The position numbers were made by a program, and so were the translations under genes. The notes below the pieces were generated by a model that was given only the letters and a program-made list of their open reading frames with translations, was not told where the DNA came from and did not search any database. A stretch of 64,000 nucleotides of DNA from Bacteroidota bacterium (GTDB lineage Bacteria; Bacteroidota; Bacteroidia; B-17B0; Aurantibacillaceae): NCBI GenBank assembly GCA_016194985.1, contig JACQAK010000013.1:101999-165998 (forward strand). Reading direction: 5' to 3'. How positions within the stretch are numbered: position 1 is the first letter of the stretch; every line of letters begins with the position of its first letter. Shown piece after piece: positions 24,926 to 50,543 of this stretch.

Positions 24926-25199
24926 TGTATTCTTTTTTATTTAATGTTTAATTAATATGACTCTGGTCTTTGGCTTTGTGAGTACTGCACTTTGCCATAA
25001 TTTTATGTAAAAGTATATCAGGAATACCTGTCGTACAATAGCAATTAGGTAAGATTATACAGCCAGTCGGTGAACGGTACCTGGCAGGCGGTAATAAGAA
25101 TACGGAACCCTCTGATTCATCAATTTTTAACTAAAACAGGCTGCTTTTGAAGCTTCGCAATACAATATAATTTGTATTTTTGATAATAATCACAACACT

Positions 25200-26507
25200 A
25201 TGTCTGAATCTAACAAAGACCAACAAATTGAAAGCCTGGAGGAGAAAGTGACTCATCTGAGCCGAATGCTTGTCAAATCATTTGGTTACGCCGATCAGGA
25301 TCCTGATACATTTTTGCAAAATGCCCGCAGAACAACCGAGGCCATTTGTCGCTTTATGTATACCAAGGAACTGGGTGAACCTAAAAGCAAAATGATGCTG
25401 AATGACTATGGCCGTGAATTATTACAAAAAAAGATCATTCCGGATAAAATTGGAATTTTAATAGGCACCATTCAAACCTACGGTAATTACGCCGCACATG
25501 CACAAGATGATTTATCGGAAGCTACCCGCGAATGGATTGCCCCCTGCCAAACAGCATTAGCCAGTTTAACCAATTGGTTCTTTCTGGAATATTTAAAAGG
25601 TAATGTACCTAACGAATTAATTACTCCCGTGCAAAGCTATGCTGAATCAGGCGGTGGCAAAAACACCAACATCGCACAATCAGCTACAGTTACCCAAAAA
25701 AAATCGCCCTTAGTTCCGATTTTAGTAGTGGCTTTAATTATTGTTATTGGAGGCTTTGCCGCTTTCTATTTCTTAAACAATAAATCTAAGGAAGTGGCCT
25801 CCGAACCACAACAATCAACAACGGCTTCAGATAATTCAATTAACCAGCAGGAATCAATCGTTGATCATTTAAACAGTGCTACGCCAAATGCCGACGCCAA
25901 ACGCATTGCGATTTTATATTTTGATAACGGGTCTGATAATACTGAATTATCTCGTTTAAGAAAAGGCTTAGCAGATATGTTGATTTCTGATTTATCTAAA
26001 ATCAAGATGCTAAATGTGATTGAGCGTGCAAGATTAGAAGAAATTTTAAAAGAGCAAAAGTTAAATAATTCCAAAGAGTTCGATCCATCCACCGCCACTA
26101 AAGTTGGTAAGCTTTTAGGCGTTCAATATATTTTAACCGGAGCCTTTTTTGATTTGATGGGAAGCATGCGTATGGACGCCCGCATTATCGACGTAGAAAC
26201 CGGAAAGATTATTAAAAGCGAAGGCATTGACGGACAAACCAACACCTTTTTCGACTTAGAGAAAAAGTTAGTGGTGAAAATTGCAAGTGGCTTAAATGTA
26301 GAATTAAAGGCTGATAATAAAGACCTCTCAGAAACAAAAACATCTTCTTTAAGCTACGAGACCTCTTTGTTATATTCAGATGCTTTAGATAAAATGGATA
26401 AAGGAGAAAATGGGAAGGCTATTGAATTACTAAAAAAAGTACTTCAAAAAAATCCTGATTTTGTTCCGGCTCAACAAGCACTAAGCAAATTAACAGCAAA
26501 GGTATAA
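25200..26507 (+). CDS. DUF4145/HEPN-like N-terminus - TM - CsgG-family domain - TPR-like C-terminus
   Basis: N-term RRTTEAICRFMYTKEL..IGTIQTYGNYAAHAQDD; TM PILVVALIIVIGGFAAFYFL; CsgG-like KRIAILYFDNGSDNTELSRLRKGLADMLISDLSKIKMLNVIERARLEEILKEQ..GVQYILTGAFF. Confidence 0.75.
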   Translation: MSESNKDQQIESLEEKVTHLSRMLVKSFGYADQDPDTFLQNARRTTEAICRFMYTKELGEPKSKMMLNDYGRELLQKKIIPDKIGILIGTIQTYGNYAAHAQDDLSEATREWIAPCQTALASLTNWFFLEYLKGNVPNELITPVQSYAESGGGKNTNIAQSATVTQKKSPLVPILVVALIIVIGGFAAFYFLNNKSKEVASEPQQSTTASDNSINQQESIVDHLNSATPNADAKRIAILYFDNGSDNTELSRLRKGLADMLISDLSKIKMLNVIERARLEEILKEQKLNNSKEFDPSTATKVGKLLGVQYILTGAFFDLMGSMRMDARIIDVETGKIIKSEGIDGQTNTFFDLEKKLVVKIASGLNVELKADNKDLSETKTSSLSYETSLLYSDALDKMDKGENGKAIELLKKVLQKNPDFVPAQQALSKLTAKV

Positions 26508-28397
26508 TGAAAAAAGGGTTCCTGTTTTTAATAGCTATCGTATTTGCATTACACATTCATGCAAAAACAATTGCTATTTCCTATTTTGACAACTCGAGTG
26601 GAGATGCCAAATATAATGCCCTATCCAAAGGTATTGCCGATATGCTCATTACCGATCTATCCAAAGTAAAAGGTGTAACGATTGTAGAGCGTGAAAAACT
26701 GGAAAAACTACTTCAGGAAATTAAATTAGGGCAATCCAAATACTTTGATCAATCCACCGCACAAAAATTAGGTAAAGGCTTAGGTGCACAGAATATTTTA
26801 ACGGGCTCTTTTTACATTTTAGATAATATCATTCGTTTGGATGCTCGTTTAATTGATGTGCAAACAGGTGGTGTTATTTTTGCGGAACAGGTAAGCGGCA
26901 ATAAAAACAATTTTTTTGCGTTGCACCAGCAACTGGCTAATCTGCTAGCCAAAAACATCAACGTACCTTACAGTCCGGATTTAAGTGGGCTTTACAAAGC
27001 TGGTGAGGAAGTAACTTTAAAAGAAGTAGTGAATTATTCAAATGCCTTGGAATTGCAGGATGTGGGCATGAGTAGTGACGCGAAGCAATTACTGGAAAAA
27101 ACCATTAAAGAGAATCCGAAATTTCATTTTGCAAAAAATAAATTAGATGAAATTAAAGAATGGTTAAAGAAAGTAGAACTACAACGCGAACAATTGATTT
27201 TAGAAGAACTTAAGAACACGATTAATAGTCTGGATGCCAATAGTGATAAATTCGGCATGCAGGTTAGTAATATCTGGACAACACTTTTATCGTCCTACAA
27301 ATATAATCAGCTATTATCATTTAATAATTCATTACGTAAAATGAAATTAGATGAAAAGAAAAAAATGTATGGCGAAGCATCTCCTATCACCTTAGGCGAA
27401 ATGATGCTGTTTTATGACTGCACCTCCCTTTCGGCCTTAAAAAAATACGAAGAAGTAATCGATGCCTCAAAACTGTTCATCACCAACTACCCTACCAGCT
27501 TATATTTTCAAAGTGTGAAAATGAACTTGGAACAAGCCATTAAAGAATTGGAACAACGCAGTAATGGTAAAAAAGGCATCGACACCAAATTATCTGCCGA
27601 ATCACTGGACGCTTACATTACTTACCTGAATAAGCTGGAATGGAAATCGAATCTGCAGTTTGTGGATGACAAAGATTACAAACACTATTTACAATTGTAC
27701 AGATCGCAGGTATTAAGTGCCAATACCGAAGTGATCAGGAACTGGGATGAAAGCATTAAGTTTAATGAGTTTACCGAATTTTTTAACGTAGCTAAACAGT
27801 TCAATGATACCAAGACAATGGAAGACATTATAGCAGCTTGCAAAGTGGTGTTTACCGAATCAGACGATCAGGACAGAACCTTTTCTCTGGAAAATAGTTT
27901 AGAAGATTTAAAAACAAAAAACATCGAAAAAGCTGATAAAATAAAAGAACTGGAAACCATTTCCAAAAAAGGGTCCAAAGCCGAATTAGAAAAAATTATT
28001 AAGAAAAGCCGGAGATTATACTTTTAAACAAAAAGATTACGACAAAACCATTCGTGAACTGACACAGGATCTCAAGAATTTACAAAACGATTACGCAAAT
28101 TATCTGAAGAATGTAAAAGGTTTGGACCCTATGGTAAATGTATTAGAAAACTATGCCAAGATCTATAACGAAAACCATCAGTATGCTGATGAAGTGTATA
28201 CCAGAAATCAATTATTGGATCTGTTTAAACTGGATAGCGACAAAGAACAATTACAACTGTATTTGTTAACGATGAGTTATTATAACTTGGGTTATTTTGA
28301 TAACGTTAAAAAAACAGCGGGTATTTTAAAAGAAAAATACCCTTCCGGTTCTTATACTGAATCCATTTCATCCATCGTTAGTTATTTGCCACAATAG
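26507..28397 (+). pseudogene. CsgG-family/TPR exported protein, interrupted by +1 frameshift in an A run
   Basis: ORF 26507..28027 (506 aa) with KTIAISYFDNSSGDAKYNALSKGIADMLITDLSKVKGVTIVEREKLEKLLQEIK; after AAAA at 28004-28007 the other frame continues KAGDYTFKQKDYDKTIRELTQDLKNLQNDYANYLKNVKGLDPMVNVL.. into ORF 28122..28397. May be sequencing error. Confidence 0.85.
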
Positions 28398-28399
28398 TT

Positions 28400-30328
28400 A
28401 TGTCAACAAACCACACAACCGCTATAAACGAACTAAACACAAAAGCGTGGGCGTACAGATATATTGACAGGGCAAAAGCCATGACACTTGCTACTGAAGC
28501 AAAATTAACGGCTTTACATAACAATCAACTCACAGACTTTCATTTTGCTCAACTCACTATTGCTCAGTTAGCCTTTTGGAAATCGAGTGAAAGTGAACAA
28601 TTGATCACCGCAAACGAAGCTGTCATCTATTTTGAAAAAGAACAAATCGCTCATGGCATATCACGAGCCAATGCTGTTTGCGCCGGTATGTATGATCAGT
28701 TTGGCCAATACGAAAAGGCCATGCAACATGCTCTAAATGCTGTAAAAGCAAGCGAGTTGATTAATGATGATACTAACAAAGGTGATTGCTATACAACGCT
28801 CGGACAAATTTATTCGCGCATACATGATTACAGCAACGCGATCCAAGCTTTAACAAAAGGCTTACATAGTCGTCAACAAATAAACGATGATAAAGCAATA
28901 GCCTCTTCTTTAAATTTAATAGCACGCAATTATGTGCTAAGTAAAAAGTACGACGACGCTAAAAATTATTATAATCAAAGTTTAGCGATAAGAGAGCGCA
29001 GTAAAGATGAAGATGGAATTCCGTGGACCTATCTTGGCTTAGCCAGCTTATATGCCGAACAGGGAGACTGGAATCTATCTTTAGAGTATTATCAAAAAGC
29101 AGAACGATCCAATGTAAAACACGAACAACGTTTTGATGTGTTGTGCTTGTTAGGTAAAGGAAAAAATCATTTACATCAAAGTAATCTTTCTGAAAGTATT
29201 GCCTGCTTAAATAAAGCCCTAATTATTTCACAGGAATTAAAAATCACGTCCATTCAATCCGAAGTGCATGAGCTATTAGCTCAAGCCTTTGAGAAATCAG
29301 GCGATTTAGAGCAGGCCTTATTTCATTACAAAACATATAATACCTTACGTCAGGAGTTATTAAGCAATGATAAAGTTAACACACTTAAAAATCAACAAAT
29401 TACCTTCTCGGTAGAAGCAGCCGAAAAAGAAGCAGAGATCCATCGCCTGAAACATGTAGAACTTAAAAATGCTTTTGATCAGATTGCTGCACAGCATCAC
29501 CAGTTAGAAGAAAAGAGTAAAGAGATTACCGATAGTATCAGCTATGCCAAACGCATACAGGATGCCTATTTACCGGCAAAAGACTTACTAACTACGATCT
29601 TTCCTCAAGCCTTTTTATTATTTAAACCAAAAGATATTGTGAGTGGTGACTTTTATTGGTTCAGTCAATTAAACTCTACTACTCCATCTCGTATTTTTGC
29701 CGCCGCCGATTGCACAGGGCACGGTGTACCGGGTGCAATTATGAGTGTGATTTGTAGCAATGCCTTAAACGAAGTGGTTGGCAACAAATATATACATCAA
29801 CCTGATTTAATTTTAAATGAAGTGCGCAACTTAGTTACGGCATCCTTTAAGAAGCAAGGAGAAGCCACACAAAAAGACGGGATGGATATTTCGTTGGTGC
29901 GATTAATAGATATGGATGGAAAAACCACTCTACAATATGCCGGCGCTAACAATCCCCTATGGATCGTCAGAAAAGGGCAACCGTCTACTCCATCAGAAAA
30001 TATAATAGCAACAAGCACACATTATTTAATAGAGATCAAAGCTGATAAACAGCCCATTGGCAATTACGAAAAAATGAATCCCTTTACCTTGCATCAAATG
30101 GACTTACAAAGTGGCGATACCATTTATTCTTTCTCCGACGGATATGCCGATCAGTTTGGCGGCACCTTTGGAAAAAAGCTAAAATACAAACCACTGAAAG
30201 ATTTGATCCTTTCTATTCAGGATAAAGATATGAGTGAACAACACACCATTTTATTCAATGCTTACAACGACTGGAAAAGAAATTTCGAACAGATCGATGA
30301 TGTATGTATGATTGGTGTGAGGGTTTAA
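28400..30328 (+). CDS. TPR-repeat SpoIIE/PP2C-type serine phosphatase
   Basis: Multiple TPRs; ITDSISYAKRIQDAYLP, FLLFKPKDIVSGDFYWF, FAAADCTGHGVPGAIMS, YSFSDGYADQFGG. Confidence 0.92.
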   Translation: MSTNHTTAINELNTKAWAYRYIDRAKAMTLATEAKLTALHNNQLTDFHFAQLTIAQLAFWKSSESEQLITANEAVIYFEKEQIAHGISRANAVCAGMYDQFGQYEKAMQHALNAVKASELINDDTNKGDCYTTLGQIYSRIHDYSNAIQALTKGLHSRQQINDDKAIASSLNLIARNYVLSKKYDDAKNYYNQSLAIRERSKDEDGIPWTYLGLASLYAEQGDWNLSLEYYQKAERSNVKHEQRFDVLCLLGKGKNHLHQSNLSESIACLNKALIISQELKITSIQSEVHELLAQAFEKSGDLEQALFHYKTYNTLRQELLSNDKVNTLKNQQITFSVEAAEKEAEIHRLKHVELKNAFDQIAAQHHQLEEKSKEITDSISYAKRIQDAYLPAKDLLTTIFPQAFLLFKPKDIVSGDFYWFSQLNSTTPSRIFAAADCTGHGVPGAIMSVICSNALNEVVGNKYIHQPDLILNEVRNLVTASFKKQGEATQKDGMDISLVRLIDMDGKTTLQYAGANNPLWIVRKGQPSTPSENIIATSTHYLIEIKADKQPIGNYEKMNPFTLHQMDLQSGDTIYSFSDGYADQFGGTFGKKLKYKPLKDLILSIQDKDMSEQHTILFNAYNDWKRNFEQIDDVCMIGVRV

Positions 30329-30331
30329 ATT

Positions 30332-30440
30332 TTGTCAGTTCGAGCGGAGTCAAAGGCTTTCTAAAATAGTATGTCACTTCGAGCGTAGTCGAGAAGCGTT
30401 CTAAAATTCTTTCTAGTTCTCGACTACGCTCGAACTGACA
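30332..30440. repeat. REP-like cluster between convergent genes
   Basis: GTCAGTTCGAGCGGAGTCAAAG (30334), GTCACTTCGAGCGTAGTCGAGA (30373-30394), inverted CTCGACTACGCTCGAACTGAC (30419-30439). Confidence 0.85.
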
Positions 30441-30448
30441 AGAGCACC

Positions 30449-30994
30449 TTAATTCAACGAAGGATCATAAGAAAAATCCGCGAAGGCTTTATAACCCGGG
30501 TTTATCTTAACAAGCTCCTCACCCCATAATTCATCGGGATGAACACTCATTAATTGGTGGTAATCAACTGTTTTCTCAAACCACATATCATTTTCCAGCT
30601 CACCGGAAAGTTGTTCTTCGCCCCAGCCGCTATAACCAATATAAAAACGGATCTGATGGGAAGACACCTCACCCCTTTCGATTAGTTCTGATAACTCAAA
30701 GAAATTACCTCCCCAATAGATATCACCGGTAATATGCTGACTGTCGCTTATTTTAGAGCCAAGGGTATGCGTGTAAAACAATTGGTTGGGAGACACCGGA
30801 CCGCCCTCAAACAAAGGGAAATTGCCATTCTTTAAATGGGGAAAAATATCACGCAATAATAATCCGTGCGATTTATTGATAATAAAGCCAAGGCTCCCGT
30901 CTGCAGTATGTTCGCAAATATAGATTACCGAGCGTTTAAAATGTCCGTCCTGTAAAAATGGTTTGGCTATTAATATATCTCCTGCCTTTATCAA
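30449..30994 (-). CDS. YqgE/AlgH family protein
   Basis: GDILIAKPFLQDGHFKRSVIYICEHTADGSLGFIINKS; FEGGPVSPNQLFYTH; FYIGYSGWGEEQLSGELENDMW. Confidence 0.93.
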   Translation of the reverse strand: MIKAGDILIAKPFLQDGHFKRSVIYICEHTADGSLGFIINKSHGLLLRDIFPHLKNGNFPLFEGGPVSPNQLFYTHTLGSKISDSQHITGDIYWGGNFFELSELIERGEVSSHQIRFYIGYSGWGEEQLSGELENDMWFEKTVDYHQLMSVHPDELWGEELVKINPGYKAFADFSYDPSLN

Positions 30995-39896: not shown

Positions 39897-42800
39897 TTAT
39901 CTGAATAAATTAAGATAGCCTTGTTGCTTATACTCTTTACCATCGAAACCTGTACAATTTAATATAAAAAAATAGGTGCCGTCCGATGCATTTCCTCCAT
40001 CCCAATAACCTGAAGGAGATGTAAATGAATACATTTTTGTGCCCCATCTGTTAAAGATATCACATTGCAGATCTTTGATGCCTGTACTGGTTATTTTAAA
40101 GAGATCATTTTTACCATCGCCATTTGGAGTAAATACGTTAGGAACAATCAATGAAGAGTTTTCCAAAACCTCAATGGATAATGTTGCCGTTCCAGAACAT
40201 AAGCCTGAAAAATCGGTTACTGTTAAAGTCACAACATAAGTTCCCGTAGCATTATATGTATGGTCCGGGTTTGTCAACGCAGAGGTGTTATTATTGGTAT
40301 CACCAAAATTCCAGGAATATGTATTTCCCACACCTGCACTTTGATTACTGAAATTCACGGCCAATGGAGCTGTTCCGGAAGTTGGATTAGCTGTAAAAGC
40401 AGCATTAATACCTCCTGATGTTACAGTTGAGACACCTGTATTTGAGCAACCATTATCATTATCAAAAACCGTTACTGTATATTGGCCAACGGATCCGGCT
40501 ATTGGAGATGATGTATTAGCACCGGATAATAACGTTCCGGTTCCTGATGTTGTCCAGCTATAACTAGCGTTTGATGCTGTTGTACCGGCAGAAAGTGCTA
40601 CTGTGGTGGAGCCGCATGGAATAACCGGATTATTAACCGATACAGAAGGAGGTGTCGTATTAGAACCAACCGTATAGGCAGTTGTTGCTAAACATCCATT
40701 AGATGTGTTCTGAATCGTTACTGAAATAACACCCGGAGCTGAGACATTGGCGTTTTGTGTATTACTTCCGGTAGACCAACTATAAGTAACATTTGAAGAA
40801 GGATTAGTATTAACGGTTAAGCTTACGGTAGGGTTTGCACAATTGATGATTTGAATAGCAGATGCAGGAGTAATAGTAGCTGTTGGAAGTGCTCCACTGG
40901 TTGTTACCACCACACTGGCTATACCCGAACAACCATTATCCGAATTCGTAACTGTCACATCATAATTACCGCCGGCATTTACACTTACGGAAGCATTATT
41001 TGCCGGTGTTGTAATTCCTGACCCTGTCCAACTATACGTATAATTACTTCCGATAGGGCTTGCATTTAATGTGACATTAGGTGATGTGCACGTAATGGTT
41101 GTATTTCCTGTAATAGAAGCGTTAACCGCTGTAGTATTAGTAGGTACCGTTACATTAGAAATAGAAGCACATAAACTATTTGTATTAGTCAGCGTCACTG
41201 TATACACACCTCCCTGATTAACATTAATGGTATTAGTCGTAGACGAACCAACAATTCCGGGCCCTGACCAGTTTACAGAAACAGGTGTCGTAGTTGTAGT
41301 TAAACTAACAGAGACTAATGTATTAGTGCAGGTAATAGAATTAGTGACGGAATTAATCATTAAAGAAGGATTTCCTAAGTTAGGAAATACTTCTACCGTT
41401 GATGTCGTTGTACAACCGGTTGTAGGATGTTGAGCCTCCAATGTATAAATACCAGCAGCGCATGCCGTAGTGGTTAAACTGGTTGCCGAACCACACACAC
41501 CACCTAGCCAGGTAACAGTAGTACCAACCGGAGAAGTAAAGCTTCCTGTTAAGGTTACGGAACTTGACGAACAGGATAACGTTTGGGATAATCCGGCATC
41601 AAGTCCTGAAGGTACAGATACATCCGTATTGGCTAGTGCTGTTGTTGAATAAGTACAATTCGTATTTGGATCTACAACAACTAACGTATAGATCCCTGCT
41701 CCTGAACCGATAGCGTTCTGAGAATTAACACCATTACTAACAGAGCTTCCGAAAGGTGCTGTCCAGGTATAGTTCATTCCGGCCAACGATGAATTCAAAT
41801 CCACGGTAGATGTGATACAGGTAATTAAACCGTTGGTACTGGCTGTAGTTGTTGGAACCGCCGTATTTTGAATAACAACATGGCTTCCTGCAGATGTGCA
41901 GTTTGAGTTTGTATTTGTTACCGTATAGCCAAATGTTCCGCCTTGCGTAACCGTGATCGTTCCTGCTCCATCATCCGAAGCAATACCTGTTCCTGCCCAG
42001 CTATAGGTTACCGGACTGTCGGTTGTAGAGACACTAACAGTAACTAGCGTATTGGTACATGTGATTGTGTTGGTTACTGCGGTTACTGTTACTGATGGCG
42101 CTCCCGGACTAGGAAACACCTGAACCGTAGATGTTGCCGAACATCCATTGGCAGGATCAGTTGCCTGTAAAGTATAAACCCCTGCACCACAGGCAGAAGT
42201 AGTATAATCAGTGGCTACACCACATACACTTGGCCCCGACCACGCCGCTGTTGCTGATGTTGGCGAAGCAATGCTTCCATTTAAGGTTACGGAAACCGAT
42301 GCCCCGCAGGTTAATGTTTGATCCGTTCCGGCGCTAAGACCGCTTGGCGTTGCTGTATTCTGTATAACAGTAGCTGTTGTTGTATAACTACAATTACCTG
42401 CAGGATCCTGAACAGTTAAACTGTATGCTCCCGGCGAAGAAGTAACTGCATTTTGAGAATTTGCTCCACTGGCAATAGAGCCAGCCGAAGGAGCCGTCCA
42501 TGTATAATTCATTCCTGCTAACGACGCATTTAAATTAACAGTCGTTGTTGCACAGGTCAGAACTCCTGATGGGCTTGCCGTAGTGGTTGGTATTGGATTT
42601 ACAGTTACAACTACTGTATTTGTTCCCTGACAGCCAGACACATCACTTCCTGTTACGGTATAAGTTGTTGTAACAGCTGCGCTGGACGTAACCGAAGCGT
42701 TGTTTGAGGCGTTTAACGACCCGGAAGGCGACCATGTATAATTTGTGGCGCCGCTCGCATTTAAGGCCACTGTTGCTCCCTGACAAATAGAAGTGGCGGA

Positions 42801-45800
42801 AGGAGTAATAGAAACCGTTAAACTTCCGTTAACCACTACCTCAACCGTTTTGGTTTGTGTGCCACTACAATTAGGAGATGTGACGGTATAAATGGTAGTA
42901 ACAGTTGGATTAACAGAAATAGATGCTGTGGTATTTGATCCGGTAATTCCGGTTGTTGGCGTCCACGTATAAGTACTTCCTCCTGTAACGGTCAGGGTAC
43001 TGCTTTGTCCTGCACAGATTGTAGATGTAGGAGATACGGTTAATGCAGATGCTGCCGGTAATATCGTTAATGGAACCGCTGCCGAATTTGAACAACCGTC
43101 GCATCTGATCACCGTTAAACTATAAGCAGTAACTACAGAAGGGGTAATGGTTAATGATTGGGAAGTTGCTCCTAATCCTGCAGGAGAAGAACTCCAGTTA
43201 TAATTATAGGTCATAGATTCTGTAAATACAACATCATCAATAGAAGCAGCCGGATTATTAACCGTTGGGCCTCCCACAATAGCAGCACCCGTATTTACCC
43301 ATTGAAATACAATTCTGGCAGTTTGCCCAACATAAGGCGTTAAATTTAACGTTACATTTTGATAAGTGGTTTGTCCTGAATAAGGTCCGCCTAAAAGAAC
43401 ATTTCCTGATCCGGCAGTTATTGCAGTACCGGCAGCAGGAACAAAGGTATTAGGCACCAACCAAACGCTCAGTTCAGCTTGTCCTGCCTGACCACCGCAT
43501 TTCCATTTAAAAGATAAATCAGAGGTACAGAAACTGCTGATAGCATAATCTCTGTAAGCATGATTAGTAGCAGTTTTTGGCGTGATAAAATTTCCAATAT
43601 CATAATTATTATTTCCGGTTGCGGTACCAATATATAAACCTTTAGTACCTGTAGCAAAAGCTGCAGTTCCCCAATACCATTTATTATTTGATCCGTTTAC
43701 AAGTGTAAATCCATTAGCAGATTCAAAATCCTGAGTATTTGTAACATTAGATCCTGTTGGAGCAGCAGTCAGTGTTGCCGTATTTCCCAAACACATGGTT
43801 GAAGGAGTGGCCGTTGCTACCACAACAGGCAGATCTCTTACAGGTATAGTTACTACAGCTGTTCCGGTACAACCCGCTGTTGTGCTGGTTGCCGTATAAG
43901 AAGTTGTTGTATTAGGAGAGACTACTAACGGTGCGTTAGGTGATGTTCCTGTATTCCATGTATAAGCATTCATACCCGGAGGCAGCGATAATGTAGCTGT
44001 TTCACCGGCACATAAAAATGGCTTACTGGCAAGGATGCCAAATGATCCGGCTCCAAATGTAATTTTAATTTGATCGGTAACCGTACAAGCGCCGTGAGGA
44101 CTGGTAACGTTTACCTGATAATAAGTAGCGCCTGTTGATCCATACTGCACAGGAGTTGTAGAATAAGAACTGTTGGTAGCACCGCCAATATTGCTAAATG
44201 TTGGTCCGCCAAAAAAAGGAACCGTTCCTGTTTGTACCTGCCATTGATAAGTTCCGCCACCACTTGCATTCAAGGTTAATGGCAGGCCGGAACACATTAA
44301 AATATCCGGTCCTAAGTTAACCGTTGGTGCTGTTTCATTAAACACAGTTACCACATCTGTTGCCGTACAAGCTCCCTGAGTTACGGTTAATGTATAATTT
44401 GTTGTTTGGGTTGGCGCTACACTTGGTGATGCTCCTGTTGAGCCATCACTCCAATTATAGATACTACCTGCACCTCCACCGGAGCCATTTAATGTTACAC
44501 TGGAGTAATTATATCCAATACCTAAAAAGCCGGGCGACTTGCAGTTATATTTATCCGGACCTGCATTTGCTGTTGGAGCTACCCCGAGTGTTACTACGTA
44601 ATTGACATTCATTGGATTACCACACATATCAGTCATTGACGTTCCTACTCCACTATTCAATACACTTAACGTATAAGACGAAGGAGTTCCGGCAACTGCA
44701 GTTAATGCAGGATTCACCGCAATTTGTACATGATTGGTCTTACCTCCGTTACAGTAATCATTGATCATTGTAAATGTTCTTCCCGGCATTGTAAAGTCAG
44801 TTGCCTGAAGCGTTGTACAATTGATCCATTCCGAAAAATAAACATCCATCACCGTTGTATTGGTACAACCATTTCCTGTTACATATGTAATTGTTGGAGG
44901 AACATTATCGGTGATGGCTACTGACGACGCTTCATTTTTAAATTGTAAAGTATAACCATCATTAGATCCACCATAAAAATTAATACAAATAGCATACTGC
45001 CTTCCAACAGTAACTGTTGGCCTTGTGCATAATAAACTACCTGATGCTCCTTCAGACGCAGATGCCCCGGAAGAACTCGCTCCGGTGTTGCCATGTGTGG
45101 CAGAATAGTTACATAATATTTCTGTTTTTGATCCACATCCACCGGTGATATCCCAAACCACAAAATCATAATCCGTTGAACCGGCCGGAATAATTAAGAA
45201 ATCCAATGGCCCTGTGGCTTGTGGCGTAAATGAATACCATACGGATCCACCTGAACCTGTTCCGCTATAACAACCACCATTGTCATCATTGATAGCACCA
45301 AGATCAACATATTGAGCAGCACTTACAATCACCGTGTTGTTAGCACATAAAGGAATAGCATTGGGGCAATCGCTTTCAGGAGCCGACTGAACCGTTGGGT
45401 TTTTAGTGATCTGACTTGTTTTAAAAACACCTTTCCAGCCTCTTCCGGGTGCATTTGATGGCGAGGCAAGGTATTCAATGGTTATGTTTTTTGCCTTGAA
45501 ATTCCAGGGCTTATCACCTGATTTTAAAACAGCTAATAAATCGCCATTTGTAGAATTACCATCATATATCTTTACCATGGCATCATACGGAATATTAAAA
45601 TCTGTAAAATATAATTCCAAAACGCCTTCTGTTCCAACAAATGTTGTAACCTGATGCTTATTACCTATATTTCCCTGTTCTCCACCATCATCAAAAAAAA
45701 GACCCTTCGACAATTCGATGGTCTTATTATGCTCCATATTATATTTAGCAGTTGGAGCAGATTCGCTTTTTTGTTGTATTACTGTAGAATGATTTTGGGC

Positions 45801-45857
45801 AATAGCCGAAAAACACACAGCAAATAACAGAACGGTCAATAGTTGTGTTAGTTTCAT
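39897..45857 (-). CDS. Giant T9SS type B (gliding-motility-associated C-terminal) adhesin-like protein with CUB, Ig-like/PKD repeats
   Basis: 1986 aa; signal peptide; CUB-like N-term; repeated SLAGMNYTWTAP..; PKD AAFTANPTSGTAPLAVNFSNQS; C-term LIVPNVFTPNGDGKNDLFKIT..IFNRWGTKMY..WDGGNASDGTYFFIL. Confidence 0.93.
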   Translation of the reverse strand: MKLTQLLTVLLFAVCFSAIAQNHSTVIQQKSESAPTAKYNMEHNKTIELSKGLFFDDGGEQGNIGNKHQVTTFVGTEGVLELYFTDFNIPYDAMVKIYDGNSTNGDLLAVLKSGDKPWNFKAKNITIEYLASPSNAPGRGWKGVFKTSQITKNPTVQSAPESDCPNAIPLCANNTVIVSAAQYVDLGAINDDNGGCYSGTGSGGSVWYSFTPQATGPLDFLIIPAGSTDYDFVVWDITGGCGSKTEILCNYSATHGNTGASSSGASASEGASGSLLCTRPTVTVGRQYAICINFYGGSNDGYTLQFKNEASSVAITDNVPPTITYVTGNGCTNTTVMDVYFSEWINCTTLQATDFTMPGRTFTMINDYCNGGKTNHVQIAVNPALTAVAGTPSSYTLSVLNSGVGTSMTDMCGNPMNVNYVVTLGVAPTANAGPDKYNCKSPGFLGIGYNYSSVTLNGSGGGAGSIYNWSDGSTGASPSVAPTQTTNYTLTVTQGACTATDVVTVFNETAPTVNLGPDILMCSGLPLTLNASGGGTYQWQVQTGTVPFFGGPTFSNIGGATNSSYSTTPVQYGSTGATYYQVNVTSPHGACTVTDQIKITFGAGSFGILASKPFLCAGETATLSLPPGMNAYTWNTGTSPNAPLVVSPNTTTSYTATSTTAGCTGTAVVTIPVRDLPVVVATATPSTMCLGNTATLTAAPTGSNVTNTQDFESANGFTLVNGSNNKWYWGTAAFATGTKGLYIGTATGNNNYDIGNFITPKTATNHAYRDYAISSFCTSDLSFKWKCGGQAGQAELSVWLVPNTFVPAAGTAITAGSGNVLLGGPYSGQTTYQNVTLNLTPYVGQTARIVFQWVNTGAAIVGGPTVNNPAASIDDVVFTESMTYNYNWSSSPAGLGATSQSLTITPSVVTAYSLTVIRCDGCSNSAAVPLTILPAASALTVSPTSTICAGQSSTLTVTGGSTYTWTPTTGITGSNTTASISVNPTVTTIYTVTSPNCSGTQTKTVEVVVNGSLTVSITPSATSICQGATVALNASGATNYTWSPSGSLNASNNASVTSSAAVTTTYTVTGSDVSGCQGTNTVVVTVNPIPTTTASPSGVLTCATTTVNLNASLAGMNYTWTAPSAGSIASGANSQNAVTSSPGAYSLTVQDPAGNCSYTTTATVIQNTATPSGLSAGTDQTLTCGASVSVTLNGSIASPTSATAAWSGPSVCGVATDYTTSACGAGVYTLQATDPANGCSATSTVQVFPSPGAPSVTVTAVTNTITCTNTLVTVSVSTTDSPVTYSWAGTGIASDDGAGTITVTQGGTFGYTVTNTNSNCTSAGSHVVIQNTAVPTTTASTNGLITCITSTVDLNSSLAGMNYTWTAPFGSSVSNGVNSQNAIGSGAGIYTLVVVDPNTNCTYSTTALANTDVSVPSGLDAGLSQTLSCSSSSVTLTGSFTSPVGTTVTWLGGVCGSATSLTTTACAAGIYTLEAQHPTTGCTTTSTVEVFPNLGNPSLMINSVTNSITCTNTLVSVSLTTTTTPVSVNWSGPGIVGSSTTNTINVNQGGVYTVTLTNTNSLCASISNVTVPTNTTAVNASITGNTTITCTSPNVTLNASPIGSNYTYSWTGSGITTPANNASVSVNAGGNYDVTVTNSDNGCSGIASVVVTTSGALPTATITPASAIQIINCANPTVSLTVNTNPSSNVTYSWSTGSNTQNANVSAPGVISVTIQNTSNGCLATTAYTVGSNTTPPSVSVNNPVIPCGSTTVALSAGTTASNASYSWTTSGTGTLLSGANTSSPIAGSVGQYTVTVFDNDNGCSNTGVSTVTSGGINAAFTANPTSGTAPLAVNFSNQSAGVGNTYSWNFGDTNNNTSALTNPDHTYNATGTYVVTLTVTDFSGLCSGTATLSIEVLENSSLIVPNVFTPNGDGKNDLFKITSTGIKDLQCDIFNRWGTKMYSFTSPSGYWDGGNASDGTYFFILNCTGFDGKEYKQQGYLNLFR

Positions 45858-45948
45858 TTTTTAGAATTAAATAGTTAATTGAAAAGGGCCACTTCACGAC
45901 CAGTGAAAAGCTCTTCTATCCTGTGAAAATAGGTTTTTATGCATATAA

Positions 45949-45974
45949 AAATAGGAGGGCTGCCCCTCCTATTT
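45949..45974 (-). terminator. Rho-independent terminator
   Basis: AAATAGGAGGG-CTGC-CCCTCCTATTT downstream of 45996..50543. Confidence 0.85.
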
Positions 45975-45995
45975 CATATTTTATGTATGCGAAAA

Positions 45996-48900
45996 TTATC
46001 TGAACAGATTCAAATAACCCTGCTGTTTATACTCTTTGCCATCTAACCCGGTACAGGTAATCACATAAAAATAAGTCCCGTCATTGGAGTTTCCTCCATC
46101 CCATACACCACTAACAGATGTAATAGAAAATACTTTCGTGCCCCATCTGTTAAAGATATCGCAATTCAAATCTTTCATCCCTGTACTGGTAATTTTAAAC
46201 ACATCATTCTTACCATCGCCATTTGGTGTAAATACGTTAGGGATTATTAAAGCTGAATTATCAAACACCTCAATCGACAAGGTGGCTGTAGATGAACATA
46301 ACCCGGAAGCATCTGTTACCAGCAATGTAACTACATAATTTCCGGTAGCATTATAAGTATGATCAGGGTTAGTTAATGACGATGTGTTATTGTTATCATC
46401 TCCAAAATTCCATGAGTAGATATTTCCAGTACCCGCAGTTTGATTACTGAAATTAACTAATAATGGTGCTGTTCCGGATGTAGGATTAGCTGTAAATGCT
46501 GCATTAATAGATGTTGTTGTAACATTAATCGTTGTTGTGCTTGAACAACCATTATTATTATCGGTTGCTGTTACGACATATGGTCCCACTGAACCTGCAA
46601 GCGGAGAAGCTGTATTTGCCCCGGATAATAACGTACCTGTTCCTGATGTTGTCCAACCATACGAAACATTTCCTGTTCCTGAAGTTGCATTAAGCGTTAC
46701 CGAAGGGGAACCGCATGGAATAACCATATTTGTTGAAGATACTCCCGGAGCCGTAGTATTGGTTCCCACTGTATATGGAACAGAAACAGCTGTACAACCG
46801 GTTACAGCATCTAAAACCAATACCGTGTATGAATTAGCACTTGTTACAGTTTCTGTACTGTTATTTCCTCCGGTAGACCATGTATATGAATAAACAGGGC
46901 CCGAAGGATTAGGAGTTGCATTTAAAGAGACTGTATGGTTCTGACAAGTTATAAGACTATTTGATGTTGCTGCAGAAATAGATACTGTTGGAGGAATAGC
47001 ACCCGAAGTTACTTGCACTGGTGTTGTTGTGGAGCAGCCATTCGAATTATCAGTAACAGTGACGCCATAACTTCCACCCTGATTAACGGTTACTGTTCCT
47101 GTTCCTTGTCCTGATACAATACCGCTTCCTGTCCAGTTATATGATGCACTGGCACCTGAACTAACCGTAACAGTTGTAGAAAGAACTGCCGTAGAATTAG
47201 CACAGGTCAATGTTTGATTAGGAGATATATTAACAACCGGAACCGCTGTATTTGTAGAAACGACCACCTGAACATTAGCAGAACAATTAGTTAAAGTATT
47301 CGTAACAGTGCATATATAAGTATTAGCCGTATTAAAAGAGACAATGGAACCATTAGCCGATAATGTGGCCGGTGTATTATTCCATGTATACGTTACATCC
47401 GAATTTGGCACACTGGTTACAGTAGCTGAAGGACTAGCATTGTTACAGTCAATTACTAAGGCCGTGGATGTAATACTTGCTAATGGCGCACCGGAGTTAG
47501 GGAAAAGCTGAACTGACGAAACAGCGCTACAACCGTTTGACGGATCAGTGGCTACTAACGTATATACTCCGGCAGCACAGGCATCCGTTGTAATTAAGGT
47601 TGGGGTTCCACATACCGCAGGTCCTGACCAAATATAAGACGCATTTGAAGGAGATGTAATACTACCCGTTAACGTTACGGAAGTAGAATTACAAGATAAT
47701 GTTTGATTATTTCCTGCACTTAATCCAACAGGAGCTACTGTATTTTGTGTCACAGTCACAGAAGTTGTAAAAGAACAGCCATTAGCAGGATCTACAACCG
47801 TTAAACTATAATCTCCTGCTCCGGATGCATTGGTAGATTCTGTATTAGGACTTGTTACACTTCCTCCTGCAGGTGCCGTCCAAGTATAATTCATCCCTGT
47901 TAAAGTTGAATTTAAAGCAACCGTAGTTGTTACACAGGTTAAAGCGCCGGATGAAGTTGCGGTTGTTGTAGGCACAGCCGTATTAGTGGTTACAACAACC
48001 TGAACAGGTGTTGAGCAATTACTAATGGTATTGGTTACTGTGCATATGTATGTATTAGCTGTATTAAAAGAAGCTCCGGAACCATCGGGCGATGTTGATG
48101 CCGGACTGTTGTTCCAGCTATAAATCACGTTTGTATTGGGAGTACTACTAACAGTCACTGATTGAACAGGAGAATTACAATCCAATATCAGGGCAGTGGA
48201 AGAAATAGTTGCTGTTGGCGCACCGGAATTAGGAAACACCTCTACTGTTGATGTTGCTATGCATCCATTCGAAGGATCAGTTGCCGTAAGTGTATAAACA
48301 CCTGCCGCACAGGCTGAAGTGACTGCATTTGTTGTACTTCCGCATACGCCGGAATCCCAGCTAAAAGTAGCATTACCCGGAGTTGATACACTTCCTGTTA
48401 ATGATACAGAGGAAGATGAACAGGTCAATGTTTGATTTGAACCCGCACTCACACCCGTAGGAGTAATTGTATTATCCGTTACAGAAGCGGTTGTTGCATA
48501 TGAACATCCGTTCGACGGATCTATAACGGTTAACGAATATATGCCAATTCCAGAGCCTATGGCATTCTGAGAGTTTACACCACTCGATATATTTCCTGTA
48601 GACGGTGCTGTCCAGGTATAATTCATTCCGCTTAACGAAGAATTTAAATTCACGGTATTAGTAACACAGGTAACAGACCCTGTTACCCCGGCTACTGTTA
48701 CAGGAACCACTGTGTTCTGAGTAACGGAAGTGGTAGTGGAATAAGTACAGCCCGCCGCACTTTGAACGACTAAGGAATAGATCCCGGCAGCTCCGGAAGC
48801 TTCTGTGGTTTGTGAGTTAGCGCTTAAAACACTTCCACCTGAGGGAGCTGTCCATGTATAATTTACTCCTGCCAATGTTGAATTTAAAGCCACGGATAAT

Positions 48901-50543
48901 GTGCTACAGGTTAAAACTCCCGAATTACTGGCTGTTGTAGACGGAATTGCATTTACAGTTACCGTTGACACGTTGGTTGATGAGCAACCGTTGGCTGTTC
49001 CTGTTACTGTATAAAATGCTGTACTGGTTGGATTCGCAGAAACAGTTGAACCCGAAGTACCACTTAAATTCGTGCCGGGTGACCAACTGTAAATAGTGCC
49101 TCCGTTAGCAGTTAAAACAGCTGATGAACCCAAACAAATAGTAGGGCTATTTACCGTAATAACAGGTAACGAACTTACTGTTACGGTTGATGTTTTCGTA
49201 TCCGAACAAAGACCAGATGTTCCCGTTACTGTATATACAGTAAGACTCGTTGGATTAACAGAAACTGTTGAACCCGTTGTAGAACTCAAACCGGCTCCCG
49301 ACCATGAATATGTAGATGCCCCGGAGGCTGTTAATATCGTTGAACCTCCTGAACATATTGTTGGAGAATTAACACTAATCGATAATGGCACAACAGACAT
49401 GGTTAAAGCCACAGTAGCACTCGCTCCACAGTAGCCAAAGGCCGTAGTGGTAATAACTGATGTTGACGAAATATTATTAAAGACAGCCGTATTGGAAGAC
49501 GTTGAAACCGGTGCCGGACTCCAGGCGTAACTGGTTGCTCCGGCAGTAGCTGTTACCGTAAATGTTTGATTAGGGCATATAGTATTTGAAGTTGCGCTCG
49601 ATGTGGTATTTAATGTTTGAACATTTCCCTTAGCAGTAACTGTATAGTCGCACACATTTCCTCCATAACCATCTAACATTAAATAATAATCCTGTCCTGC
49701 AGTTAATCCTGTTAAGCTTAATGTAACAGTTCCGGCTGCCGTTGTTTGATTAAAATTACCTCCCGAAACCGGAGTAAAAGTCGAACAATTGGTAGAAGCA
49801 TATACGGCTCCCTGAATTCCGCTTCCTGTGAATAAGCAATTAGCAGACTGAACCACTAGCGTGGAAGTTGTAGCACTCGACACAAAATTAATCCATGAAT
49901 TATTTTCTATACTTCCTCCAAAACCCGGAGCTGCCTGACCTTCTAGTTGTGCATTATCTTCATTATACCAACCACCTGTATTACCACAATACCCAGCTAA
50001 ATTACATATCTGAGGAGAAGATGAACAATTATCAGCTGCAGGGATGTTTCCATTACAACTAGTAGGAGGGCATCCTATCAATATTGACCAACCGTATACT
50101 TCATTTGGGAAACTGCCTAAGAACTGGCCTTTTGAGCCGTTAGATACAAAGCGGATCGTAATAACTGAACCTGTACTGGTAGCGTTCAATCCAGTAAAGC
50201 AGGTTGTTGTATTCCCTCCGGTCCAGGTAGCTATTAATGGGCTGGCAGCAGACGGACCATCATACACATAAATAAAGTCATCATCCAACACATGCAATGT
50301 TAAATTAGCATTTAGCACCGTTCCGGATCCGGAGACAAATGTATAAGCCCTGTCTATATTTGCACAATAAACGGGCGTCAAAAAGGCTCCTCTTGTACAT
50401 GCCAATTCTACATCCAAAGTGGCTCTGCAGGAAGTAATTGTTTTAGTACTAGCTGTCATTATATAAGACCCATCCTGCGAATAAGCCTTTTCAAGTAAAC
50501 ATGTTACCAGAATTGTTAAAGTAAATAGTAGTTTTTTCATCAT
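45996..50543 (-). CDS. Giant T9SS type B adhesin-like protein, paralog of neighbours
   Basis: 1515 aa; signal peptide, CUB-like YVYDGPSAASPLIATWTGGN, Ig-like repeats, PKD, C-term LIIPNVFTPNGDGKNDVFKIT..IFNRWGTKVF..YLNLFR. Confidence 0.93.
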   Translation of the reverse strand: MMKKLLFTLTILVTCLLEKAYSQDGSYIMTASTKTITSCRATLDVELACTRGAFLTPVYCANIDRAYTFVSGSGTVLNANLTLHVLDDDFIYVYDGPSAASPLIATWTGGNTTTCFTGLNATSTGSVITIRFVSNGSKGQFLGSFPNEVYGWSILIGCPPTSCNGNIPAADNCSSSPQICNLAGYCGNTGGWYNEDNAQLEGQAAPGFGGSIENNSWINFVSSATTSTLVVQSANCLFTGSGIQGAVYASTNCSTFTPVSGGNFNQTTAAGTVTLSLTGLTAGQDYYLMLDGYGGNVCDYTVTAKGNVQTLNTTSSATSNTICPNQTFTVTATAGATSYAWSPAPVSTSSNTAVFNNISSTSVITTTAFGYCGASATVALTMSVVPLSISVNSPTICSGGSTILTASGASTYSWSGAGLSSTTGSTVSVNPTSLTVYTVTGTSGLCSDTKTSTVTVSSLPVITVNSPTICLGSSAVLTANGGTIYSWSPGTNLSGTSGSTVSANPTSTAFYTVTGTANGCSSTNVSTVTVNAIPSTTASNSGVLTCSTLSVALNSTLAGVNYTWTAPSGGSVLSANSQTTEASGAAGIYSLVVQSAAGCTYSTTTSVTQNTVVPVTVAGVTGSVTCVTNTVNLNSSLSGMNYTWTAPSTGNISSGVNSQNAIGSGIGIYSLTVIDPSNGCSYATTASVTDNTITPTGVSAGSNQTLTCSSSSVSLTGSVSTPGNATFSWDSGVCGSTTNAVTSACAAGVYTLTATDPSNGCIATSTVEVFPNSGAPTATISSTALILDCNSPVQSVTVSSTPNTNVIYSWNNSPASTSPDGSGASFNTANTYICTVTNTISNCSTPVQVVVTTNTAVPTTTATSSGALTCVTTTVALNSTLTGMNYTWTAPAGGSVTSPNTESTNASGAGDYSLTVVDPANGCSFTTSVTVTQNTVAPVGLSAGNNQTLSCNSTSVTLTGSITSPSNASYIWSGPAVCGTPTLITTDACAAGVYTLVATDPSNGCSAVSSVQLFPNSGAPLASITSTALVIDCNNASPSATVTSVPNSDVTYTWNNTPATLSANGSIVSFNTANTYICTVTNTLTNCSANVQVVVSTNTAVPVVNISPNQTLTCANSTAVLSTTVTVSSGASASYNWTGSGIVSGQGTGTVTVNQGGSYGVTVTDNSNGCSTTTPVQVTSGAIPPTVSISAATSNSLITCQNHTVSLNATPNPSGPVYSYTWSTGGNNSTETVTSANSYTVLVLDAVTGCTAVSVPYTVGTNTTAPGVSSTNMVIPCGSPSVTLNATSGTGNVSYGWTTSGTGTLLSGANTASPLAGSVGPYVVTATDNNNGCSSTTTINVTTTSINAAFTANPTSGTAPLLVNFSNQTAGTGNIYSWNFGDDNNNTSSLTNPDHTYNATGNYVVTLLVTDASGLCSSTATLSIEVFDNSALIIPNVFTPNGDGKNDVFKITSTGMKDLNCDIFNRWGTKVFSITSVSGVWDGGNSNDGTYFYVITCTGLDGKEYKQQGYLNLFR

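Follow-up and report, generated by a model that had tools for sequence, protein, structure and literature searches.

A candidate transmembrane co-sensor in Bacteroidota: a three-gene block combining a predicted HEPN-fold receptor, its exported CsgG-like paralogue and a SpoIIE phosphatase

Introduction

For the many SpoIIE phosphatases of Bacteroidota, no explanation of the route by which an envelope signal reaches them was found in the literature searched. A three-gene block (hereafter the trio) from a bacterium of this phylum raises this question in a compact form. The trio lies in a window of 64,000 nucleotides (the whole stretch of DNA analyzed here) located on contig C101 of a 4.23-Mb genome in 236 contigs. 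Its initial annotation, made from the nucleotide letters, proposed that paired CsgG domains sense across the membrane and feed a phosphatase. The questions are therefore whether the three genes belong together, what each of them encodes and how their products could be wired.

Organization and inheritance of the trio

The features of the locus, in window coordinates, are the following.

25096..30448, no strand: trio-bearing inserted segment, missing at the same site in the congener G012
25175..25182, plus strand: Bacteroidota-type -7 promoter-like element TAnnTTTG (TATTTTTG), 25 nt 5' of the gene 1 start
25200..26507, plus strand: gene 1, 435 aa (Pfam, hydropathy, AF2 helices, Foldseek HEPN matches and alignment), with a DUF4145/HEPN-fold domain at aa 1-143, a transmembrane (TM) helix at ~171-189, a predicted periplasmic CsgG/LpoB-like domain at ~233-372 and a short TPR at ~385-432
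25200..25628, plus strand: DUF4145/HEPN-fold domain of gene 1, with the invariant H100 in GTIQTYGNYaaHaQ and a dN/dS of 0.007
26507..28027, plus strand: 5' part of gene 2, with a signal peptide, a CsgG/LpoB/CadC-sensor-like domain and the start of a TPR-like helical region, ending prematurely
27999..28000, no strand: junction of the 194-nt deletion that breaks gene 2, from the alignment to L018
28122..28397, plus strand: 3' remnant of gene 2 in another frame, with 95.6% identity to the C-terminal end of the 694-aa protein that is intact in L018/L007
28400..30328, plus strand: gene 3, cytoplasmic TPR-SpoIIE (PPM-type) phosphatase, 642 aa (Pfam TPR and SpoIIE, match to 6k4e, motifs)

The order gene 1, gene 2, gene 3 is kept in all nine testable trio loci (the window, L011, L012, L013, L014 and L016 (gene 3 partial), L017, L018 and L020). 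In the genome G001, the start of gene 1 is on one contig and genes 2 and 3 are on another. In a class-wide search with gene 2, the trio was met in two further genomes, G566 (that of L013) and G664 (that of L012). Hence, the co-occurrence proposed as a check in the initial annotation is observed, the three genes being co-conserved in every testable relative. Intergenic gaps are mostly between -4 and 30 nt. Genes 1 and 2 overlap or are separated by at most 10 nt in seven of eight loci, the distance being 98 nt in L014. In the window, gene 2 indeed starts at 26507 on the annotated TAATG that also holds the stop of gene 1. The tight junctions from which co-transcription had been proposed recur in the relatives; the 2-nt gap to gene 3 was, however, counted from an out-of-frame remnant of gene 2. 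Upstream of gene 1, TAnnTTTG is found at a fixed spacing of 25-26 nt from the start in 9/12 loci. We take this sequence to be the -7 consensus of Bacteroidota, and the element is putative here. A sigma-70 promoter scan is uninformative for this phylum.

Local alignments of the window flanks to G012 extend up to 25095 on the left and resume at 30449 on the right. Only 3 nt separate the two matches in G012, where a LiaF-like gene is directly followed by an AlgH-like gene, without the trio. Relative to G012, the trio is thus a clean insertion of 5353 bp (5.35 kb). The LiaF-like and AlgH-like genes are also adjacent in G013 and G006. In G008 and G001, the trio stands beside other genes, hence at different chromosomal sites in congeners. 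With its clean insertion between two genes that directly adjoin each other in congeners, and its other sites in further ones, the trio appears to move as a unit; the block behaves as such, with common inheritance and several chromosomal locations. Its distribution is patchy (4 of the 20 genomes of the genus). According to Pfam, the insertion site in this genus adjoins LiaF-like and LytTR genes. At L011 (4807-7935, genome G008), the trio is immediately preceded by two more SpoIIE genes. The window carries a palindromic repeat-like sequence (GTCAGTTCGAGCGGAGTC ... GACTACGCTCGAACTGAC; 30333-30440) 3' of gene 3, close to the right end of the insertion. Farther along (39897-50543), it holds two very large minus-strand ORFs of 1986 and 1515 aa.

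A single-pass protein with a HEPN fold lacking the RNase arginine

Pfam recognizes DUF4145 in residues 31-112 of gene 1 (27.1 bits for a cut-off of 23.1), CsgG (56.9 bits for a cut-off of 20.8) and a weak TPR at the C-terminal end. LpoB also scores above its Pfam cut-off in gene 1, as it does in gene 2. A single TM helix, at ~171-189, is predicted from hydropathy in 11/11 relatives. The initial description of gene 1 as a DUF4145/HEPN-like domain followed by one TM helix and a CsgG domain is therefore confirmed. From the nature of these domains, the HEPN part would be cytoplasmic and the CsgG-like part periplasmic.

The AF2 model of gene 1 has a mean pLDDT of 51.5; only the bundle at the N-terminus and the final helices are modeled with confidence, and the periplasmic part is poorly modeled. 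In this model, the N-terminus forms five helices within aa 7-131 (pLDDT ~50-85). Using Foldseek, most of the structures matched are HEPN proteins (2hsb, 1o3u, 1wol, 3o10 and HepT-type complexes), with probabilities near 1 and a best target TM-score of 0.65-0.69; their E-values are weak (0.1-0.7) because the remainder of the model is poor. These helices and matches predict for the N-terminus the HEPN fold that the initial annotation had asked to verify; together with the co-conservation of the three genes, the proposal thus passes both of the refuting conditions set in that annotation. When the DUF4145 part was compared by profile with solved structures, nothing matched up to E 5. Used alone as a query across 396 genomes of the phylum, this domain gave a match in none but its own.

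Within the trio, constraint is strongest on the HEPN domain, with the above dN/dS obtained against L018. RNases of the HEPN superfamily require an Rx4-6H motif (PMC3710099). This motif is absent here: T, Y and G occupy positions 93-95 in 11/11 relatives, without Arg, before an invariant H100. As this arginine is missing in every relative, a HEPN toxin or active RNase was rejected as the main view. The lack of the motif arginine suggests that the domain is probably a protein-interaction output and not a toxin.

An exported paralogue of the sensor domain, broken in this genome

Gene 2 has a signal-peptide-like N-terminus and a Pfam CsgG match of 59.6 bits, its CsgG region being 44% identical to that of gene 1. 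The NCBIfam CadC model matches it with an E-value of 2.3e-5, below the family cut-off. A better AF2 model (mean pLDDT 76.3) was obtained with the intact gene 2 of the relative L018. Its best Foldseek match is the periplasmic domain of CadC (3ly9, E 8.7e-6), and further matches are the lipoprotein GNA1162, LpoB (4q6l/4q6z) and TolB (2hqs). By paralogy with gene 2, a TolB/LpoB-like and TPR-like periplasmic sensor is attributed to gene 1. Overall, the proposal of trans-envelope sensing is supported by the topology and by the CadC/LpoB/TolB fold match. A curli secretion pore was rejected: genes 1 and 2 cover the Pfam CsgG model only partly, the gene 2 model has short strands only, with no long membrane-spanning beta hairpins, and no lipobox is found in the gene 2 alignment.

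In the relatives, gene 2 is one ORF of 692-696 aa. In the source genome, it stops at 28027 after 506 aa and resumes in another frame, 194 nt of the closest relative L018 being absent between 27999 and 28000. An intact gene 2 in this genome is rejected by this deletion. The dN/dS is 0.033 for the 5' part and 0.029 for the 3' piece (28032-28394), indicating purifying selection in both. Because the two halves are still under strong constraint, the break is either recent or an assembly fault of the 236-contig genome. Gene 2 as initially annotated, an exported CsgG-TPR paralogue of gene 1, thus stands as to its export signal and its paralogy, but not as one intact reading frame here.

A SpoIIE phosphatase and its possible partners

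Gene 3 matches SpoIIE in Pfam with 49.8 bits (cut-off 25) and, by profile, the solved serine phosphatase 6k4e (E 1.3e-38). Its SpoIIE part is SiaA-like, the SiaA model giving 138 bits. The metal-binding acidic motifs GDFYW, D-x-TGHG-x-PGA, DGMD, DG and DDVC are conserved in 8/8 proteins, and hydropathy gives no TM helix in the window protein. With TPR and SpoIIE recognized by Pfam and its acidic motifs intact, gene 3 is the cytoplasmic TPR/SpoIIE phosphatase first described.

Against 33 SpoIIE-domain matches, the genome (G000) has a single match to STAS and only one RsbW-like protein that stands alone, so that phosphatases are many and visible partners few. The sole STAS gene is on contig C95 and the RsbW-like gene on C233, both away from the trio. 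The trio operon itself contains no STAS or kinase gene. A linked SiaABCD/Rsb partner switch was rejected, the only STAS gene lying elsewhere. In view of these numbers, the STAS protein, stand-alone and the only one in the genome, is the best candidate substrate of gene 3. The same 33 matches make adjacency to a SpoIIE gene less special here than in most bacteria.

A sister group with a caspase output

The class-wide search with gene 2 also identified six genomes in which gene 1 encodes a signal peptide, CsgG, TPR and a caspase. This form keeps the CsgG pair; the caspase replaces the HEPN-TM part and there is no cytoplasmic domain. Peptidase_C14 scores 74.9 bits (Pfam) in G059, and several of the proteins show the His and Cys motifs of caspases. 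In G588, gene 1 is cut by the contig end ahead of the caspase motif. Loci of this form are listed below; the first four are operons, sister to the trio, of an exported CsgG-TPR-caspase protein and an orthologue of gene 2.

L023, 8734-12347: caspase gene and gene 2 orthologue
L147, 4790-8406: caspase gene and gene 2 orthologue
L148, 1113-4723: caspase gene and gene 2 orthologue
L150, 2309-5937: caspase gene and gene 2 orthologue
L151, 6528-8081: caspase gene only

No description of a CsgG-TPR-caspase operon was found in the literature searched. No SpoIIE gene follows gene 2 in the four caspase loci that have sequence beyond it (G059, G568, G595 and G532); in G595, a SpoIIE fragment lies ~5 kb off on the opposite strand. 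SpoIIE thus stands beside the cytoplasmic HEPN form in 9/9 loci vs. 0/4 for the caspase form. The count is small, and each form belongs to a clade of its own, so that the association of HEPN with SpoIIE may go back to one event passed on many times. In the trees, the gene 1 CsgG domains of both forms group together, and so do the gene 2 domains (support 99/94 and 100/98 in one tree, 95/93 and 100/98 in the other). This grouping across the forms implies that the duplication behind the CsgG pair is older than the swap of the output.

CsgG pairs in other classes of the phylum

Adjacent CsgG pairs also occur in other classes of the phylum, where they correspond, according to the tree, to a separate duplication. 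By motif, a Ser/Thr kinase gene adjoins 12/12 of these pairs, as well as one additional pair interrupted by one gene. Pfam confirms the kinase in L064, L068 and L074, a PP2C in L064, L074 and L061, and FHA in L064 and L068. In four loci of one family, where the CsgG genes are kilobases apart, no such kinase gene was detected by motif. At L074 (4803-16998), the PP2C, the Ser/Thr kinase and the tandem CsgG pair are directly beside the type VI secretion genes TssJ, TssK and TssM (Pfam), and L075 has the same gene layout, mirrored.

A model for the trio, and its rivals

We lean, with modest confidence, toward the trio being a transferable transmembrane co-sensor resembling CadC and ToxR/ToxS, in which a HEPN adaptor output controls the SpoIIE phosphatase. 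Gene 1 would be a CadC-like single-pass receptor, with a cytoplasmic output, one TM helix and a periplasmic CsgG/LpoB/TolB-N-like domain followed by a short TPR. Gene 2, its soluble periplasmic paralogue, would probably bind an envelope ligand or partner through its long helical TPR-like arm, and may pair with gene 1 by way of the CsgG-like fold that both have, as a same-fold analog of ToxR/ToxS. Binding of such a putative ligand would alter the pairing of gene 1 and, in turn, the state of its HEPN-fold domain. The latter is proposed to switch the phosphatase by docking on the TPR region of gene 3, and gene 3 would then dephosphorylate a Ser/Thr-phosphorylated regulator, possibly the stand-alone STAS protein. 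A wiring from HEPN adaptor to SpoIIE fits with SpoIIE being found beside the cytoplasmic form but missing beside the caspase one. Accordingly, the initial idea that a CsgG pair feeds a phosphatase gains indirect support from this distribution and from the separate CsgG pairs found beside Ser/Thr kinases. A literal CsgG pore is not supported.

A broader proposal, to which we give somewhat less than an even chance, is that the conserved paralogous periplasmic CsgG-like pair is the sensor core of an undescribed modular Bacteroidota family. Its outputs would be either intracellular (the HEPN adaptor and SpoIIE) or periplasmic (a caspase-like protease), with independent pairs wired elsewhere to Ser/Thr kinases and PP2C.

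Three other explanations were weighed. Genes 1 and 2 could serve envelope or peptidoglycan maintenance as LpoB- or FlgO-like structural activators, gene 3 being a general phosphatase co-transcribed by chance. LpoB is indeed among the best folds and above its Pfam cut-off in both genes, the insertion site in the genus adjoins the LiaF-like and LytTR genes, and the L074 pair with its kinase and PP2C adjoins a type VI secretion cluster, L075 being laid out alike. We nevertheless find this explanation unlikely, as chance co-transcription does not agree with gene 3 occurring in all nine trio loci and being absent beside the caspase form, the constraint is strongest on the cytoplasmic domain, which points to an inward output, and the neighbors vary between insertion sites. 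Binding of RNA at the membrane by a non-catalytic HEPN domain, as for the MtlR type, with the phosphatase in a parallel branch, has in our view only a slim chance of being correct. Motif-less HEPN domains of the MtlR type were proposed to bind RNA, and membrane-linked DUF4145 proteins are on record (PMC3710099); this, however, leaves the co-inheritance with SpoIIE unexplained, and no RNA-related gene was recognized among the annotated neighbors.

An anti-phage or stress-suicide module, where the CsgG pair would sense envelope damage and trigger a HEPN or caspase-like effector restrained by the phosphatase, would account for the patchy distribution and the insertion as a block. It would also agree with the swap between HEPN fold and caspase, both common effectors of conflict systems (for HEPN roles, see PMC3710099), and PADLOC returns a weak match of the candidate-defense model PDC-M16A over the DUF4145 part (E 4e-6). 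Nevertheless, other PADLOC models give at most partial, low-scoring matches, and no defense gene was recognized among the adjacent genes examined with Pfam. A specific defense role, as raised in the initial annotation, is not supported. The three possible positions of the motif arginine before H100 are invariably G, Y and T. Conflict effectors usually diverge fast, and the HEPN part is under very strong purifying selection. Altogether, a defense module appears distinctly improbable.

The co-sensor reading, if true, would define a kind of receptor that uses an inactivated HEPN domain as a signaling adaptor and not as a toxin. The trio is a small and mobile test system whose receptor, partner and enzyme are all predicted, and a comparison of domains with the caspase version allows a direct test of the modular idea.

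Comparison with known systems

The building blocks of the trio are already known; their combination was not found described in the literature searched, nor was that of CsgG with SpoIIE, kinases or caspase. Genes 1 and 2 resemble the CsgG curli channel, LpoB and FlgO in matching Pfam CsgG and LpoB. They differ from the channel by the partial match to the CsgG model and, for gene 2, by the missing lipobox and long beta hairpins. Membrane-linked DUF4145 proteins were described with an N-terminal TM helix and a WP signature (Anantharaman 2013, PMC3710099). Gene 1 shares with them a DUF4145-family HEPN fold and a TM helix, but its HEPN domain is N-terminal with the TM helix after it, a CsgG-TPR sensor is attached and the motif Arg is lost. 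Gene 3 has the SpoIIE domain and conserved acidic motifs of SiaA/RsbU-type phosphatases; unlike these, it carries an N-terminal TPR instead of a membrane sensor, in an operon without STAS or kinase gene.

Neighboring genes, which often overlap, encode an output protein anchored by a TM helix and its partner in the periplasm in the co-component systems ToxR/ToxS and VtrA/VtrC (PMC9214523). The trio is similar in the adjacent or overlapping gene for a predicted periplasmic partner and in its cassette-like spread. However, this partner is not a lipocalin: it is paralogous to the sensor domain and bears a long TPR-like arm. Nor is the output a transcription factor. Finally, gene 1 resembles the ToxR-like one-component sensor CadC in its predicted cytoplasmic output, its single TM helix and its alpha/beta TolB/LpoB-like periplasmic sensor with a helical TPR-like part. 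It differs from CadC in having a HEPN-fold output in place of the winged-helix DNA-binding domain, and the trio also encodes a separate periplasmic paralogue and a phosphatase.
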